From: Candidatus Omnitrophota bacterium
Lineage (GTDB): Bacteria > Hinthialibacterota > Hinthialibacteria > Hinthialibacterales > JAKPRU01
Direction of reading: 5' to 3'
NCBI GenBank assembly: GCA_029570205.1
Contig: JAKQSI010000081.1
Coordinates: 1 to 15,856, forward strand
Length of the DNA: 15,856 nt
The notes below the pieces were generated by a model. The model saw nothing but the letters and a program-made list of their open reading frames with translations. It was not told the origin of the DNA and ran no database searches. The position numbers and the translations under genes are program-made. Shown here in pieces: positions 384 through 15,699 of this stretch (its first letter is position 1; every line of letters starts with the position of its first letter).

Positions 384-671
384 TCAATAGAACAAATAAA
401 TGATCACCTGTGACAGCAGCGCCGCAATCGCGTAGGGGCGCAAACTCACGGTCTTTCCCGTGCGTTCATCCGTCACAAACACTTCCTCTTTTTTCAGTGT
501 CAAAACCCAGATAATCAACAATGTAAAATAGGCGATAAAGACCCCTTTCGCCGTGGTGATATCGATGGATACCAATACGTCCCGGAAGAATCCGCCCGGA
601 ACACGCAGAATGTTCGCAAAGAAATCGGCAATTGGCGTCAGAATGGGAGAAAATTGATTCGACTCAGGCAT
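384..671 (-). CDS. Small two-helix membrane protein, likely partner of the symporter
   Basis: This 95-residue protein is not recognised as a named family. Two hydrophobic segments are visible, about residues 42-59 (GVFIAYFTLLIIWVL) and 79-95 (AIAALLSQVIIYLFY, at the extreme C-terminus). They are joined by a charged loop rich in Lys, Glu, Asp and Arg. A moderately hydrophobic stretch lies near residues 14-31. Its ATG overlaps the TGA of the symporter gene by one base (TGATG). An AAAGGAGG Shine-Dalgarno sits about 9 bases upstream, inside the symporter's last codons, so translation is very likely coupled. Small membrane proteins co-translated with a transporter often act as accessory subunits. 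That role is inferred from gene order only. The 33-bp repeat array begins 20 bp beyond its stop. Confidence 0.85.
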   Translation of the reverse strand: MPESNQFSPILTPIADFFANILRVPGGFFRDVLVSIDITTAKGVFIAYFTLLIIWVLTLKKEEVFVTDERTGKTVSLRPYAIAALLSQVIIYLFY

Positions 672-2488
672 CAGGCATTTCCTCCTTTATAGCGATATAC
701 AAGGCCGCGAAGTTTCTCCTCCGGCTCCATGGGTGTGATCAGGCTCACAACGACAGTCAATACAACGGCAAAGACAAAGGACCACCAGGCGATATACAGA
801 AACGGATCCTGGATCAGAAACAGCGGCTCGCTGGCGTAGGAGTTGATGAACAGCATCCCGCTCGAACAGCAGAGGCCGCCGATAAGGCCGACAAAAGCGC
901 CGATCCCGGTTGCCCGTTTCCACAGAACGCCCAGGACAATAATCGCGAGGCTGGGCCCCTGGAATAACGTCAACAGCGTTTGGATGAGGGTGTAAATGCT
1001 CTCGAAATTGGCGGAGAACTCAGCGAACAAGATGGCCCAGACAATAAAAGCGAAGGTCAGGATTCTACCGACAGTGAGGTAATGCGTGTCATCCGCGTGG
1101 GGCTTGAAGAAACGTTGATAAATGTCCTTGGTCCAGAGAGTTGCGGCGGAGTTCAGGCAGGAATCCACGCTGGACATAAGCGCCGCCAGGAACGCCGCGA
1201 AGAAGATCCCCAGGACCCCGGTCGGCAGCAGGTCCCGCACGAGGGTTGCCATGGCCTTGTCGGCATCGGCGACATAGGGGTTGTATGCCAGAGCTACCAT
1301 CCCCGGAACCACCATGATAAACGGAATAAAGACTTTCAGAATAGCACCCCAGACATAAGAGGCTTTCGCTTCCGCCTCGGAACGCGCGCCCAGCGACCGT
1401 TGCACAATCGCCTGGTTGCCGATCCAATAGGCGTTCGCCAGAACCAATCCCAATCCCAGGAAAATACCGGACCATGGATAGGGTGTCGGCGTATCCGCCG
1501 GAAGGACGAGATGAAAATGGTCTTTCGTGCGATCCCCCAGCTGGTGAATCAGGTCCACGAATTCCCCAAATCCGCCGAGTCGATGGATCCCATAGATGAG
1601 AACGAAAGCACAGCCCAGCATCATCACGATACATTGAATGACATCCGTGTACACCACAGCGGTCAACCCCCCGGAGTACGTATAGAGACCGACAGCCACT
1701 CCCATCAAAACGATAGAATAGAACAGGGGCCAGGCGGGAGGACGGGCAACATCGGCGGCACGTTCGGCCAGCTGCTCAAGATTCTCTCCCATGCGAAAGA
1801 GAACTACGGGGACCTCTTTTCCCGGGGGAAGGTCTTTCAGGCGACCGATGATCTCATCTTTCAGCGGACTGGCTTCATCAATCAGCAGCAGGTTGGGGCG
1901 ATGCTCCACAGCCATGGTGATCGTATCATCCACCGTGTCGAGGCGGACAGAATCATATTTCTTGCCCGCAACTACATTCAGAACCTCGGTGACAGCGGCT
2001 GTCTCAGCCGGACTGACAATCACCGTTTTCGGATTCAAATCGAGCAATACGTTCAGCATCACGGCAGTGGCATACAGCATGATTCCCAGGTTGCAGGCCA
2101 GGAAACTTCCCCAGATCAGGGCCGAGGTGGTTCGAACCGCAATGTTATATCGTCTGCCGAACCATTCGGGGACTGTGGTGACCCCGGTTCGCCAGAAAAT
2201 GGGAATGAAGATAAAGGCGGCAATAATCATCACGGGCACAGAACCGAGCCAGTCGAAATTCCCCATGACAATTCCATAGAGATAGGCCGATCCGGCAATC
2301 CCCACAATATCAATCGCACCGATGTCGGTCACCACGAGGGACATGCCGATCGCCCACCAGGGCAATTTCCGTCCGGCCAGAAAATAGTCATGGCCGGTTT
2401 TGATTCGCCGTCCCAGGTACACGCCGTACCCGACGGTTCCGACGAGGTAGATGAGAACGATGATGTAATCGATGATTGACAGGCCCAT
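671..2488 (-). CDS. Na+/solute symporter (SSS family) with an inserted receiver-like domain
   Basis: This is a 605-residue multi-helix transporter that should couple sodium entry to uptake of a sugar or similar solute. Family marks are GGLTAVVYTDVIQ at about residues 273-285, and the helix with ALMSSVDSCLNS near 436-447. The two serines there (439, 440) fall where vSGLT has its Na2-site serines. An LxGR motif follows the first helix (residues 37-40). Most relatives have only a short loop after the helix ending near residue 150. Here residues about 152-251 form a soluble alternating beta/alpha stretch: KTVIVS, then a helix, then NLLLID (Asp204), then VPVVLF, then a helix. This resembles a degenerate response-regulator receiver. 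By the usual LeuT-fold topology that loop faces outward. Shine-Dalgarno is weak (GAGAGTGAG). It lies 57 bp after the GT2 gene in the same direction. The substrate cannot be read from the sequence. Confidence 0.95.
   Translation of the reverse strand: MGLSIIDYIIVLIYLVGTVGYGVYLGRRIKTGHDYFLAGRKLPWWAIGMSLVVTDIGAIDIVGIAGSAYLYGIVMGNFDWLGSVPVMIIAAFIFIPIFWRTGVTTVPEWFGRRYNIAVRTTSALIWGSFLACNLGIMLYATAVMLNVLLDLNPKTVIVSPAETAAVTEVLNVVAGKKYDSVRLDTVDDTITMAVEHRPNLLLIDEASPLKDEIIGRLKDLPPGKEVPVVLFRMGENLEQLAERAADVARPPAWPLFYSIVLMGVAVGLYTYSGGLTAVVYTDVIQCIVMMLGCAFVLIYGIHRLGGFGEFVDLIHQLGDRTKDHFHLVLPADTPTPYPWSGIFLGLGLVLANAYWIGNQAIVQRSLGARSEAEAKASYVWGAILKVFIPFIMVVPGMVALAYNPYVADADKAMATLVRDLLPTGVLGIFFAAFLAALMSSVDSCLNSAATLWTKDIYQRFFKPHADDTHYLTVGRILTFAFIVWAILFAEFSANFESIYTLIQTLLTLFQGPSLAIIVLGVLWKRATGIGAFVGLIGGLCCSSGMLFINSYASEPLFLIQDPFLYIAWWSFVFAVVLTVVVSLITPMEPEEKLRGLVYRYKGGNA
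1736..2035 (-). other. Region coding for the inserted alpha/beta domain of the symporter
   Basis: These bases code for residues about 152-251 of the symporter. The stretch is hydrophilic and predicted by eye as beta-alpha-beta-alpha-beta-loop-beta-alpha. The third strand ends in an Asp (LLLID, residue 204), the position of the phospho-acceptor in CheY-like receivers. The acidic pair after strand 1 is absent (VIVSPAE). The Ser/Thr after strand 4 appears to be replaced (LFRMG), and no receiver-type Lys is evident. If it is a receiver relative, it is degenerate. A flavodoxin-like or other alpha/beta sensor fold is equally possible. Confidence 0.6.
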
Positions 2489-5146: not shown

Positions 5147-5173
5147 ATGGGACGAATGGGACCAATGGCCTCC
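5147..5173 (+). repeat. 9-bp repeat ATGGGACSA, three units, at a gene start
   Basis: Units are ATGGGACGA, ATGGGACCA and the diverged ATGGCCTCC. Each begins with an in-frame ATG, so the array supplies three candidate start codons for the downstream gene. GAGAGGGG immediately upstream can act as a Shine-Dalgarno with proper spacing for the second ATG (5156) or third ATG (5165), rather than the first. Confidence 0.7.
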
Positions 5174-6928
5174 CCGCAAGGACAGGCGGATGGTCCGAAC
5201 GGGAGAGGGGGCGAACCGGAACAATCAACATCAGATCGGGATCGGAACGCCATGGCAGAAGGACGCACACCGCCGACACGAGATCAACTGATCGCTTACA
5301 TCCGCAAACTGGAAAAGCGGTTGAGATTCCTTGAAAGCGAACTGGCGGAATACAAGCGCTCCGGTGAATCGACCAACGGGCTGAAAACCACGCAGGAGGC
5401 CGTTTCCACCTCTGCCGCAACGGGCCAGCCTCCCAAGGTCGTTATTCCGCCCCAACCGGTCCCTGTGTCGCAACGGGACAAGCCGCCCACCTTTGTCACT
5501 GGGAAAAGGCCGGTCCTCCCACCAACAGCCACACCTTTATCCGCACCAAAAGCCGAAATGGAAGAGCCGAGACCGAGACCCGAAGAGCCGGTCGATCTCG
5601 GTGTGGGGCCAGCAGCCGCACCGGCCGAAATGCGCGACATTACGGATATCGACGAGGAGGCGCCCCCCGCCCCCTTATCGGAAAGCGTAACCTATCCTCA
5701 CCCCCAAAACGAACCTGTTTACATTCCTATCCCGGATATTCTTCCACCCGTGTTCAAACCGGGCGAATTTACACGCCTGGTACTTCACGGAGAGGAGGAG
5801 GACATCGTCGATCCCATGCTGCGAAGCCTGGATCAGCTTAAAACCTGCCCGCCGGAAGAGAGGCGGAATGTCTTCATCCGGATGACCGGCATCTTCTGGA
5901 CGGCGGTGGATCGTATGGGCAGACGGACAGGCTCCGGGAAACTCTCCTGGCCCAAGCGGCTGTTTATGCGGTTCGGCATCATCGACCCGGATCTTTTGAG
6001 CGATGAAGTCTGGCGCACGCTTTACAATGAAAACAGTTCCGTCGGCGATACGGGGATTTATTATTTGGATGAATGGCTTGAGGCGATCTATCGGCAGGAG
6101 ATCAAGCACAGCTCGATTGATGAAATAGCCCTTCAGGGCGACAAAGCGAAAAAGGATGCTTCCGGGGAAGAGTGCCTGGCCTACGAGCTGCTGAACATTC
6201 CCCAGATGCAACGTATGGTCGTGGGGCCACGGGCAAATCTGACCACAATCCTGACCTCCGACTACTGTCTGCCCACACGTGACAATCCGCTTCTCACACG
6301 GGAATGGGTTTATCGAACCGTCAAGATGCTGATGCCGTTCGACTACACGGTGTTCCAGCGCAAATACCGGGGGGAGGATATTGAGGTCAAACCGCTCTGG
6401 CTGATCCTGCCGGGCTATGGAACACGGGCTGCGTGCTGGGAGCCTTGGAGCCCCGGTTCAAAACGGACCGGCCCACGGCTGCTGATTTGCCTGTTCCCGC
6501 CACGCGCTTCCCTCAAGACCCTCATCGATGGGCTTTCCGATTTCCGCTGGACCTTCGCCAAAGAGGATGCCATGCACTACTGGCTGACCGAGGGCCTGAC
6601 CGGCAAGTTCCTGGGCATGTTCAGCATGAAAGAACAACGCCAGGATATGAAAGCCCTGTTCCGCGCCTACTACAGGGAATGGATACTCAATGAACCACGG
6701 CGTGTTCCGAAACTCGACAAGAGAATACGTGAATTCTTCTACCACAACTGCCCTTATTCAGATGATGTCAAACAGACCCTTCGCAGCGGCGGCCTGTTCA
6801 TGCGCATGATCGAGCTGGAGATGGCGAAACGGGAGCGCGACGAGAAGGAAAAGGAAGAAATCGAGCGGATCAAGGCCATGCGGCAGGCGAAAAAGGCCAT
6901 GCGGCAGGCGAAACTCGAAGGGGGTTGA
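5147..6928 (+). CDS. Protein of unknown function: coiled coil, Pro-rich linker, conserved-looking C-terminal half
   Basis: This 593-residue protein is not recognised. Residues 1-35 are low-complexity and partly made by the 9-bp repeat. Met36 (5252, MAEGRTPPTRDQL) is a reasonable alternative start. Residues 45-70 form a likely coiled coil (LIAYIRKLEKRLRFLESELA). Residues about 95-205 are a proline-rich flexible linker. Residues about 206-400 look helical (RNVFIRMTGIFWTAVDRMG, WRTLYNE, GIYYLDEWLEAIYRQE). Residues 405-450 look beta-rich (KPLWLILPGYG, RLLICLFPP). Residues 465-545 are again helical. Residues 553-590 form a long charged helix with a duplicated KAMRQAK. There is no signal peptide or membrane helix, so it is predicted cytoplasmic. 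The glycosidase lipoprotein gene follows 9 bp later, implying one transcript. No catalytic motif was seen. A scaffold or regulator is possible, but this is a guess. Confidence 0.85.
   Translation: MGRMGPMASPQGQADGPNGRGGEPEQSTSDRDRNAMAEGRTPPTRDQLIAYIRKLEKRLRFLESELAEYKRSGESTNGLKTTQEAVSTSAATGQPPKVVIPPQPVPVSQRDKPPTFVTGKRPVLPPTATPLSAPKAEMEEPRPRPEEPVDLGVGPAAAPAEMRDITDIDEEAPPAPLSESVTYPHPQNEPVYIPIPDILPPVFKPGEFTRLVLHGEEEDIVDPMLRSLDQLKTCPPEERRNVFIRMTGIFWTAVDRMGRRTGSGKLSWPKRLFMRFGIIDPDLLSDEVWRTLYNENSSVGDTGIYYLDEWLEAIYRQEIKHSSIDEIALQGDKAKKDASGEECLAYELLNIPQMQRMVVGPRANLTTILTSDYCLPTRDNPLLTREWVYRTVKMLMPFDYTVFQRKYRGEDIEVKPLWLILPGYGTRAACWEPWSPGSKRTGPRLLICLFPPRASLKTLIDGLSDFRWTFAKEDAMHYWLTEGLTGKFLGMFSMKEQRQDMKALFRAYYREWILNEPRRVPKLDKRIREFFYHNCPYSDDVKQTLRSGGLFMRMIELEMAKRERDEKEKEEIERIKAMRQAKKAMRQAKLEGG
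6872..6913 (+). repeat. Perfect 21-bp tandem duplication inside the unknown gene
   Basis: The segment coding KAMRQAK occurs twice in a row without any difference, so the duplication is recent or is being kept uniform. It adds seven residues to the charged C-terminal helix and keeps the frame. Confidence 0.95.
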
Positions 6929-8289: not shown

Positions 8290-8874
8290 ATGTTTTCAAC
8301 CTTCCGCAATACTCTTCAACGTATCGTTTCCTTCCTCAATCGTCGGTTTTGGCTGGTGTATGTTCTTGTTATGTTCGCGAATGTGGCGTTTCTTTGGCTG
8401 ATTTTGCCGATAACATCAGAAGAGGGCATTATCGGATCTTTTCATTCATCGCTTGTCATGGCTCTCTTGGAACTGGCAGGCGAATATCGGCATTTCTCAT
8501 TTATCTGGGTCTTTTCTACTCATTTAACTTTCGCATTGTTGCTTCTTTGGCCTGTGGTTCTCCTTTGGGTGTATCACCGGAAAGGAATGCTTTCAGCAAC
8601 GATACTCTGCCTTTCCGTTGCATTGGCGATATCCCTGCTGGATGTACATCAACTTCAATGCACGTTGCAGCATGCCAGATTGGCTATGCATCACGGCGAG
8701 ACAATGCCGGAGAAAGAGGTTCTGGGAAGTATTGGTCCCCCCTTGATGATTCGTAGAGACATCTATGGGGAAGAATGGATTTACACGGATGGCATTTGGC
8801 GTAGCACGGTCTGGCTGGATTTGGAAAGAAAGGGGCGTATCAATTCCGCTCCGGGACGACTCTTATTTGATTGA
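8290..8874 (+). CDS. Hypothetical inner-membrane protein with soluble C-terminal tail
   Basis: This 194-residue protein is not recognised. Three hydrophobic segments are visible at about residues 20-40 (FWLVYVLVMFANVAFLWLIL), 70-95 (STHLTFALLLLWPVVLLWV) and 101-118 (LSATILCLSVALAISLL). Residues about 120-194 are soluble. The tail has LGSIGPPL (145-152), EEWIYTDG (161-168) and WLDLERKGRINS (175-186). That is a G-P / W-x-Y / strand-then-G pattern vaguely like BamE/SmpA modules, a weak resemblance. GGAG at 8282-8285 lies four bases before the ATG and supports this start over the overlapping frame. It stands alone between two hairpin-bearing spacers and is convergent with the sulfatase gene. Confidence 0.8.
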   Translation: MFSTFRNTLQRIVSFLNRRFWLVYVLVMFANVAFLWLILPITSEEGIIGSFHSSLVMALLELAGEYRHFSFIWVFSTHLTFALLLLWPVVLLWVYHRKGMLSATILCLSVALAISLLDVHQLQCTLQHARLAMHHGETMPEKEVLGSIGPPLMIRRDIYGEEWIYTDGIWRSTVWLDLERKGRINSAPGRLLFD

Positions 8875-13521: not shown

Positions 13522-15699
13522 ATGAAACATAGATTGCTCTCCACCATCGTTTGCCTCTCAACACTGTTCATAGCAAGCGTCACCTTTTCGCAAACCCCTG
13601 TTCCATTCGAGCAGGGGGATGATCTCCATACGATCCGTCAGAAAATCAAGCAGAATGGGTATTCGTTCACCGTTCGCGACTATAAGGCCGAGCTGGGAAA
13701 GGAGTTCTTCGTGTCCGGGCTTTTCCCGGCGAGGTCAAGAAGTGGGCTGAACGCCAAAATGCTCCCCGTGAAAGAAATGGCAATCCCGGAGCAACTGCCC
13801 GAATCGTTCGATTGGCGCAATGTCAACGGGAAATCCTATATCGGCCCGATCCGCAACCAGATGCAGGCAGGTACCTGCGGGATGTTTGCCGCCTGTGCCG
13901 CCGCCGAATCCGTGTTCAACATCCATGGGGGATTCACGGATGAACAGTGTATCGACTTATCCGAATCCTATTTGTCGTGGACTCTCGGACAGGTTCCCGG
14001 ATATTCGGAGCACTTCTCCGGCTGGATCGGCGCGGATACCGATTTCTATGAAATGACGGCCCTGACAAAGATGGGGATCGGAACCGGAAAAGAAGGGACA
14101 TGCTTTGAATCGGATTTCCCCTATCAGGATGTTTATCCGGGAAATGAATACTCGGATAATTCCTTGTCCTTCCCGCGCATTTACATGGACAACTGGTTTC
14201 GCGTGTCCACTCCACGTTATGAGGACATGACGAATGCAATCAAAGCCGCCATTCTCCAATACGGATGCGTCACTACCGCGGTGAACGTCATTGATGCATT
14301 CTACGGTTATGCAGGCGGTGTTTATGAAGATAGCCAGACCGTACCCGACGCTTCCCCCTATTTCTACTCCACGGCGAATCATGCCATTGCCCTGGTCGGT
14401 TGGGATGACAATCCTCCCGAAGGCGGCGGGGGATGCTGGATCCTCAGGAATAGCTGGGGAACCGACTGGGGGGAGAACGGCTACATGCGGATCCGTTACA
14501 AATCAGCCAGGGTCAATATGTATCCGTGTGTATTTCTTATGGATGAAGAATCGATTCACGCCTATACGACTGGCGTGGAACAGGCGGGAGGAGACCGTGC
14601 CGCCCTGGCAGGTTATGTGAAAACTGGAACGGATGAGAACGTCTCGTATTACTTCGAATACGGCACGGACAAATCCTTTAGTCGAAAAACGCAGGCCAAA
14701 ACTATTCCGCATGTCAGTGCCCGGGACATCTATCGTGTTACAGAAGTGATTTCCGGCCTGTCGCGAAATCAGACGTATGAATATCGCCTGGTTGTTCTGA
14801 ATGGAACGAAACCGATTGTCGGGATGACGGATTCCTTTACGCTGAAAGAACCTCTTGCAGACCCGGAACCGCCCGTGGTCCGCAAGAATTACCTGAACAC
14901 GACTTTCTCAACCGCGATACAGACCCGAAACCTGCCGACCAGCATTTCTCTCGAATACGGAGGGACACCTGAATATGGCAAAACAAGAACTGTCGCAACA
15001 GTGCCGCGAGACCAGGAAATCCGCGTAGACATTCAAGACCTGCTTCCGGCTACGACCTACCATTACCGTTGGGTACTCGATAATGGAGTCGGTCCGGTGT
15101 ATTTGAATGACGCAACATTTACCTCATCGGAGAACATTTTCCGCAACGGATTCGAATCGGATGAGGACAATCCGGGATTGTATATCTCGTATTACATCAA
15201 CGGACAGCGGTTCTTCGATCATAGCTACAGTTGGATTAAGGCTGACGGATCTCTTATGCCCAAACAGAATCCGTCTTCGGCTTTTGGTGGGAAAAAGAAC
15301 TGTGTCTTCGCATTTGATCCTCTTTTTGAATTTGAAAAGGATTACACCGAAGAGGTAGGCATTCAGTCCTATTTGACATCGCTCCCGCTATGTCTGCACC
15401 AATTCGACCGGGCTTGGCTTTCTTTCTATTATGCGCAACCCGCCTGGGGGGAGGATCAGGATGAGCTGCGTGTGTACTACCAGAGTTCTCCCAATGGAAA
15501 CTGGACCTTGCTGCCGGGCGCGGAGTTCCGGGACAATGTAACGGAGTGGACACGTCAGGTCCTCGAATTGCCTGATCTCAGCGATTCGTACAGCATTCGG
15601 TTCGGCGCAACCGGGAATTTTGGATGGGGTGTTCTTCTGGATGAAATCGAGATTCTTCGGACGTTCGATACCGGCGTGCTTGACTGGAATCTATATTGA
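13522..15699 (+). CDS. Secreted papain-family (C1A) cysteine peptidase with FnIII-like and jelly-roll-like modules
   Basis: This 725-residue protein starts with a Sec signal peptide (basic MKHR, then a hydrophobic stretch to about SFSQ-like residue 24). A short propeptide-like region follows (25-90). The peptidase domain (about 92-345) opens with LPESFDWRN. The active-site Cys is in AGTCGMFAA (Cys119), the Gln of the oxyanion hole in RNQ (113), the His in TANHAIALVGW (His287) and the Asn in ILRNSWGTDWGENGYMRI (Asn310). The Trp that normally follows the catalytic Cys is Gly. Residues 346-442 and 450-536 are two fibronectin-III-like modules ending in TYEYRLVV and TYHYRWVL. From 538, IFRNGFES opens a jelly-roll or choice-of-anchor-J-like domain ending in GVLLDEIEIL. 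It likely acts outside the cell or on its surface. It has its own promoter and stands alone. Confidence 0.94.
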   Translation: MKHRLLSTIVCLSTLFIASVTFSQTPVPFEQGDDLHTIRQKIKQNGYSFTVRDYKAELGKEFFVSGLFPARSRSGLNAKMLPVKEMAIPEQLPESFDWRNVNGKSYIGPIRNQMQAGTCGMFAACAAAESVFNIHGGFTDEQCIDLSESYLSWTLGQVPGYSEHFSGWIGADTDFYEMTALTKMGIGTGKEGTCFESDFPYQDVYPGNEYSDNSLSFPRIYMDNWFRVSTPRYEDMTNAIKAAILQYGCVTTAVNVIDAFYGYAGGVYEDSQTVPDASPYFYSTANHAIALVGWDDNPPEGGGGCWILRNSWGTDWGENGYMRIRYKSARVNMYPCVFLMDEESIHAYTTGVEQAGGDRAALAGYVKTGTDENVSYYFEYGTDKSFSRKTQAKTIPHVSARDIYRVTEVISGLSRNQTYEYRLVVLNGTKPIVGMTDSFTLKEPLADPEPPVVRKNYLNTTFSTAIQTRNLPTSISLEYGGTPEYGKTRTVATVPRDQEIRVDIQDLLPATTYHYRWVLDNGVGPVYLNDATFTSSENIFRNGFESDEDNPGLYISYYINGQRFFDHSYSWIKADGSLMPKQNPSSAFGGKKNCVFAFDPLFEFEKDYTEEVGIQSYLTSLPLCLHQFDRAWLSFYYAQPAWGEDQDELRVYYQSSPNGNWTLLPGAEFRDNVTEWTRQVLELPDLSDSYSIRFGATGNFGWGVLLDEIEILRTFDTGVLDWNLY

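Follow-up and report, generated by a model that had tools for sequence, protein, structure and literature searches.

Introduction

Few signalling domains are as common in bacteria as receivers, which work in the cytoplasm. In transporters with the LeuT fold, TM3 and TM4 are scaffold helices, and SLC6 transporters have a long outer loop (EL2) between them. Proteins of the sodium/solute symporter (SSS) family have their N-terminus outside the cell, and one SSS histidine kinase, MxtR, carries a REC domain (PMC7918813). Pseudo-receivers are receiver-derived domains that are without at least one of five residues (PMC12632262), and an orphan receiver, Rv3143 / MSMEG_2064, is found on mycobacterial complex I (PMC9274095; PDB 8e9i_O). 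Here we describe an SSS symporter gene in a 15,856-nucleotide stretch of DNA (the window) from a Candidatus Omnitrophota bacterium (GCA_029570205.1, contig JAKQSI010000081.1), for which a preliminary description from the sequence had proposed that a receiver-like domain is spliced into a core loop of the transporter.

Results

The open reading frame at positions 671..2488 of the reverse strand encodes a 605-aa protein with 13 predicted transmembrane helices that, by profile and model, is an SSS (SLC5-type) sodium/solute symporter with transport as its predicted activity. It is matched by TIGR00813 at E 3.9e-89 (299.6 bits, against a cut-off of 184) and by PF00474 (Pfam SSF) at E 1.1e-67 (229 bits, against a cut-off of 22.8), and the full-length AF2 model (pTM 0.80) retrieves SGLT1, SGLT2, vSGLT and NIS in Foldseek, as expected of a LeuT-fold core. 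The match to vSGLT (2xq2, E 2.3e-66) covers residues 2-150 and 254-587 and skips 151-253, and both the PDB sequence matches and the family profiles are split in two pieces around residues ~151-252. In the PDB sequence alignment S439 and S440 align with S364 and S365 of vSGLT, which we take to be its Na2-site serines. Residues K385 and D79 are the equivalents of vSGLT K294 and E88, and, given the roles known for these in vSGLT, the pair is compatible with a sugar-like solute as substrate. The chain stops at residue 605, right after the last helix; its significant matches are to SSS models only, and Pfam, NCBIfam-type models and the AF2 model reveal no STAC or kinase domain C-terminal to the SSS domain.

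A gene for a 95-aa small membrane protein (384..671, reverse strand) overlaps the symporter stop codon. The protein has two likely membrane helices, as judged by eye, and no Pfam or NCBIfam match, and it is likely a candidate small subunit of the symporter, an arrangement comparable to that of MAP17 with SGLT (PDB titles). It is not tied to the feature described below, because it adjoins the symporter both in sequences with the inserted domain and in close relatives without it. Other window neighbours of the symporter encode a GH116 enzyme, an MGH1-like glycosidase and a sulfatase. In two Marinimicrobia contigs (L032:6092-8742 and L029:6059-8738) the symporter and small gene are followed by genes for possible PAP2-like phosphatase, esterase-like and carbohydrate deacetylase-like proteins. 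Elsewhere in the window, a 33-bp tandem repeat (positions 1-358, 10.8 copies, 94% matches) lies just downstream of the 95-aa gene, two forward-strand ORFs (5147-6928, 593 aa; 8290-8874, 194 aa) have no Pfam match at E 0.01, and a 725-aa protein (13522-15699, forward strand) has a papain-type peptidase domain and weak phosphatase N-terminal domain matches.

The segment skipped by the family profiles is a 102-residue insert between core helices TM3 and TM4 (residues 151-252; 1733..2038, reverse strand), within one codon of the limits, about 152-251, first suggested for an interruption of what is usually a short connection. Such an insert is non-standard for the family, because close relatives join TM3 to TM4 directly and others do so via -2 to 27 aa: in four genomes of the window's order (G005, G006, G007 and G008) the gap between the flanking segments, each 63-74% identical, is 0, and the range of -2 to 27 aa, counted from the counterpart of residue 150 to that of residue 253, holds for the remaining SSS proteins that were measured, some encoded in the window's genome and others in relatives belonging to different phyla. 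Fifteen further sequences carry the insert at the identical place. A frame or assembly artefact is ruled out by that recurrence and by dN/dS values of 0.02-0.37 for the insert. One insert-free relative (L018:1051-2934) has a different insertion, more than 100 residues long, which falls at the counterpart of residues 551/552 in another loop predicted to be outer.

Because SSS proteins have their N-terminus outside (PMC7918813), the TM3-TM4 loop is an outer loop, where the preliminary description had also put it. Lys/Arg counts agree, with 13 in 69 residues of the inner loops and 4 in 82 residues of the outer loops when the insert is left aside, and by analogy with SSS homologues the insert very probably faces the outside of the cell. 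A predicted outer-face position near the pathway would suit a gate or lid above it, but TM3 and TM4 are part of the LeuT-fold scaffold, which makes direct gating less likely. Moreover, the SSS members that have been studied close their outer side with the cTM7-8 loop and with cTM1, 2, 9 and 10 (PMC7918813), and we regard a gate as very improbable.

The beta/alpha rhythm read from the sequence is borne out by structure prediction, in which the insert is neither disordered nor made of ordinary SSS helices and instead forms a compact domain. In the full-length AF2 model its blocks have pLDDT ~78-90, and modelled alone with AlphaFold it reaches pLDDT 86.7 and pTM 0.80, the input alignments being shallow in both cases (16 sequences for the full protein, nine for the insert alone). 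Both models predict four strands and four helices in the order beta-alpha-beta-alpha-beta-alpha-beta-alpha, and not the (beta-alpha)5 topology of a receiver. As assigned by DSSP on the AF2 models, and all on the reverse strand, these begin with beta1 (residues 154-158, 2015..2029), alpha1 (163-173, 1970..2002), beta2 (179-183, 1940..1954) and alpha2 (186-195, 1904..1933); beta3 (200-204, 1877..1891) is the LLLID strand and ends in D204, and is followed by alpha3 (210-218, 1835..1861), which is shortened in Marinimicrobia, and beta4 (228-231, 1796..1807). The last helix (237-247, 1748..1780) is, from the MAFFT and structural alignments, the probable equivalent of receiver alpha5. The structural alignment extends to DivK residue 121, and the span of this alignment together with the MAFFT alignment, rather than coordinates, suggests that alpha4-beta5 has been deleted and that alpha5 survives as the last helix.

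Profile comparisons turn the proposed receiver likeness into significant similarity. Searched against all PDB sequences, a profile of nine inserts has the PhoP receiver as its top match (E 7.6e-5), nearly all that follow being response regulators, and in the alignments printed D204 stands opposite the receiver phospho-acceptor, in line with the CheY-like position suggested for the Asp ending the third strand. Against the window's 4.4-Mb genome the same profile yields three non-self matches (E <0.01), all of them to receivers called by PF00072. With hhalign the insert matches an alignment of 30 receivers from the window's genome at P 5.4e-7, ahead of B12-binding domains (1.7e-3) and Peripla_BP_4 (0.31); the receiver score is 39.9, whereas none of 100 column shuffles exceeds 17.9, and the reversed alignment is also far below. 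The divergent Marinimicrobia subgroup alone has a weak receiver match (P 0.007, hhalign), and weak matches to PhoB-type and NblR-type models are seen for six of the nine inserts. In structural comparison, VIA-align gives DivK at Z 12.3 (rmsd 2.1 over 96 residues), and the best 50 matches are almost all receivers, a few bearing other titles (USP11, Dsk2 Sti1); Foldseek gives receivers at E-values no better than ~1e-3, and the flavodoxin-like fold is a common one.

Other assignments were tried and rejected. A Peripla_BP_4 half-domain attains a score that 39 of 100 shuffles also reach, the B12-binding match is weaker than that to receivers, and a reading of LLLIDEA as an AAA Walker B motif fails since relatives do not conserve it and a Walker A is absent.

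The receiver likeness could nevertheless be convergence, with the insert an unrelated flavodoxin-like or AAA-like domain. The commonness of the fold would allow this, PF00072 matches neither the window protein (up to E 10) nor any of the nine inserts (up to E 1), and the single sequence has an AAA_22 Pfam match (E 0.0017; 19 bits, against a cut-off of 27), but that match comes from the LLLIDEA string and is seen in just two of nine members, a Walker A is lacking and DE is not conserved, and the profile tests favour receivers over B12-binding and Peripla_BP_4. We consider convergence quite improbable, and derivation of the insert from a receiver (CheY-like) domain well supported by sequence profiles and models.

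The observation that other receiver residues are missing also stands. At the DD1 position, after beta1, the sequences have Ser, Thr or Ala; DD2 varies, no Thr/Ser is conserved after beta4, and the conserved Lys falls within the missing segment, leaving the insert without the full five-residue catalytic set (DD1, DD2, D, T/S, K). Judged from these residues, the insert is not a working receiver; normal aspartyl-phosphate chemistry would not be expected because alpha4-beta5, Lys, Thr/Ser and DD1 are lost, and from what is known of the family we infer that phosphorylation has been lost. By the published definition (PMC12632262) it classifies as a pseudo-receiver, with a shortened fold. Of 16 sequences, 13 have Asp at residue 204 and the other three (L070-L072) have His, and the retention of the Asp may point to some use of the old pocket. 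One such use would be that of an outer ligand sensor, in which the solute or a related molecule binds the old phospho-pocket at D204 and alters transport. Other pseudo-receivers do bind ligands (PMC12632262), but the remaining pocket positions vary, the substitution by His affects the very residue concerned, and no conserved pocket is seen beyond D204, such that a sensor is unlikely.

A single protein query against contigs with one genome per species identified eight MAGs with full-length carriers: one labelled Omnitrophota (93% identity overall), one from Verrucomicrobia (66%) and six of Marinimicrobia type (~62%). Profile searches of 245 genomes of the Marinimicrobia phylum found insert-bearing copies in 14 (that of L073 a partial sequence) and an insert-free relative only in one more (L074). 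Among 387 genomes sampled from the phylum of L027 a carrier was present, at the threshold used, solely in L027's own genome, and a search of 386 relatives' genomes found none outside the window's genus. In an unrooted tree built on the transporter core with the insert left out, the 16 carriers analysed, which belong to the window's genus, to Marinimicrobia and to a single Verrucomicrobia MAG, form one clade (support 100/99) adjoining insert-free proteins of the window's order. Because they do so, the insert was probably gained once, and the distribution is most simply explained by one gain with later horizontal transfer. The tree is formally compatible, too, with the insert having been lost once on the opposite side of the branch, though distant relatives are also without it.

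The insert changes several times faster than the transporter and yet is under purifying selection. Identity to distant carriers is 22-29% for the insert and 64-75% for the core, and dN/dS in the pairs compared is 0.02-0.37 and 0.03-0.05 respectively, both well below 1. Conservation is concentrated in the membrane-proximal linkers (LLDLNPK before the insert and ARxPxW after it) and a few single positions, and no invariant surface patch beyond these is seen among the carriers. The combination of conserved linkers and a fast-changing insert would fit an interaction surface on a fixed mount and a tolerated spacer equally well, and conservation alone does not tell them apart. The second of these would make the insert a passenger or structural spacer, neutral in itself and kept folded only since misfolding would harm the transporter. 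Its rate of change is in keeping with this, as is the different large insertion of the close insert-free relative L018, because of which outer loops appear to tolerate additions. On the other side, every clade member found keeps the insert, in three phyla and with no clean loss seen, and the linkers are conserved, and we judge a passenger rather unlikely.

Discussion

The best explanation of the whole is a receiver-derived outer insert that has lost phosphorylation and now offers a surface for docking or assembly, an explanation to which we give a probability of roughly 0.55. A receiver (CheY-like) domain would have been inserted, in a single event, into the TM3-TM4 outer loop of an SSS symporter and would afterwards have lost alpha4-beta5, Lys, Thr/Ser and DD1; phospho-chemistry outside the cell would in any case be without a donor. 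The compact four-strand remnant, mounted on the rigid TM3/TM4 scaffold by the conserved linkers, could then act as a phosphorylation-independent surface on the outer face, either for a periplasmic partner or for self-association of the symporter.

We rank docking or assembly first since every member found, in all three phyla, has kept the domain. Taken by itself this role is the part of the explanation with the least support, and its chances fall slightly short of even. No insert-specific partner gene was found among the neighbours compared, the adjacent 95-aa gene being present with or without the insert. The preliminary description had offered docking, ligand sensing and gating as possible functions; the first is the one we favour, sensing stands in between, and direct gating has receded. 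A broader statement, in which a cytoplasmic receiver was exported in a transporter loop and took on a new phosphorylation-free job outside, recruiting a periplasmic partner or regulating transport, is tentative and would sooner be wrong than right.

If the docking explanation is true, a receiver fold has survived both export and a complete change of job and has been kept in the outer loop of a transporter in at least three phyla. With insert-free relatives at ~70% identity, deleting or exchanging the insert would be a direct test of what it does. The part of the open-access literature covered yielded no precedent for a receiver located in a transporter or beyond the cytoplasm, and this is a weak indication that none exists.

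Compared with the described SSS/SLC5 symporters (vSGLT, SGLT1/2, NIS and SiaT), the window protein has the common fold, a match in two parts and aligned Na2-site serines, but where known members have a short loop or a direct junction between TM3 and TM4 it has a 102-residue domain. The EL2 of SLC6 transporters is an enlargement of the same LeuT-fold loop, although not by a receiver-like domain. With receivers and pseudo-receivers (PF00072; PMC12632262) the insert has in common the order beta1-alpha1-beta2-alpha2-beta3-alpha3-beta4, the Asp at the end of beta3 and profile similarity; it differs from them in having four strands, no Lys, no DD1 and no conserved Thr/Ser, and in sitting in a transporter loop that is, by homology, outside the cell. 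The named pseudo-receiver families, in contrast, have a complete (beta-alpha)5 fold (PMC12632262). The SSS histidine kinases CbrA, CrbS and MxtR (SLC5/STAC) likewise combine SSS and two-component parts, but there the signalling parts are C-terminal to the SSS domain, whereas the window symporter has no kinase or STAC domain and its receiver-like part is an insert in an outer loop. The role proposed here resembles that of Rv3143/MSMEG_2064, in which a receiver fold is a protein-binding accessory of a membrane complex, although that receiver is a separate protein on NuoD, a cytoplasmic-side subunit, and the one described here would be built into the transporter itself.
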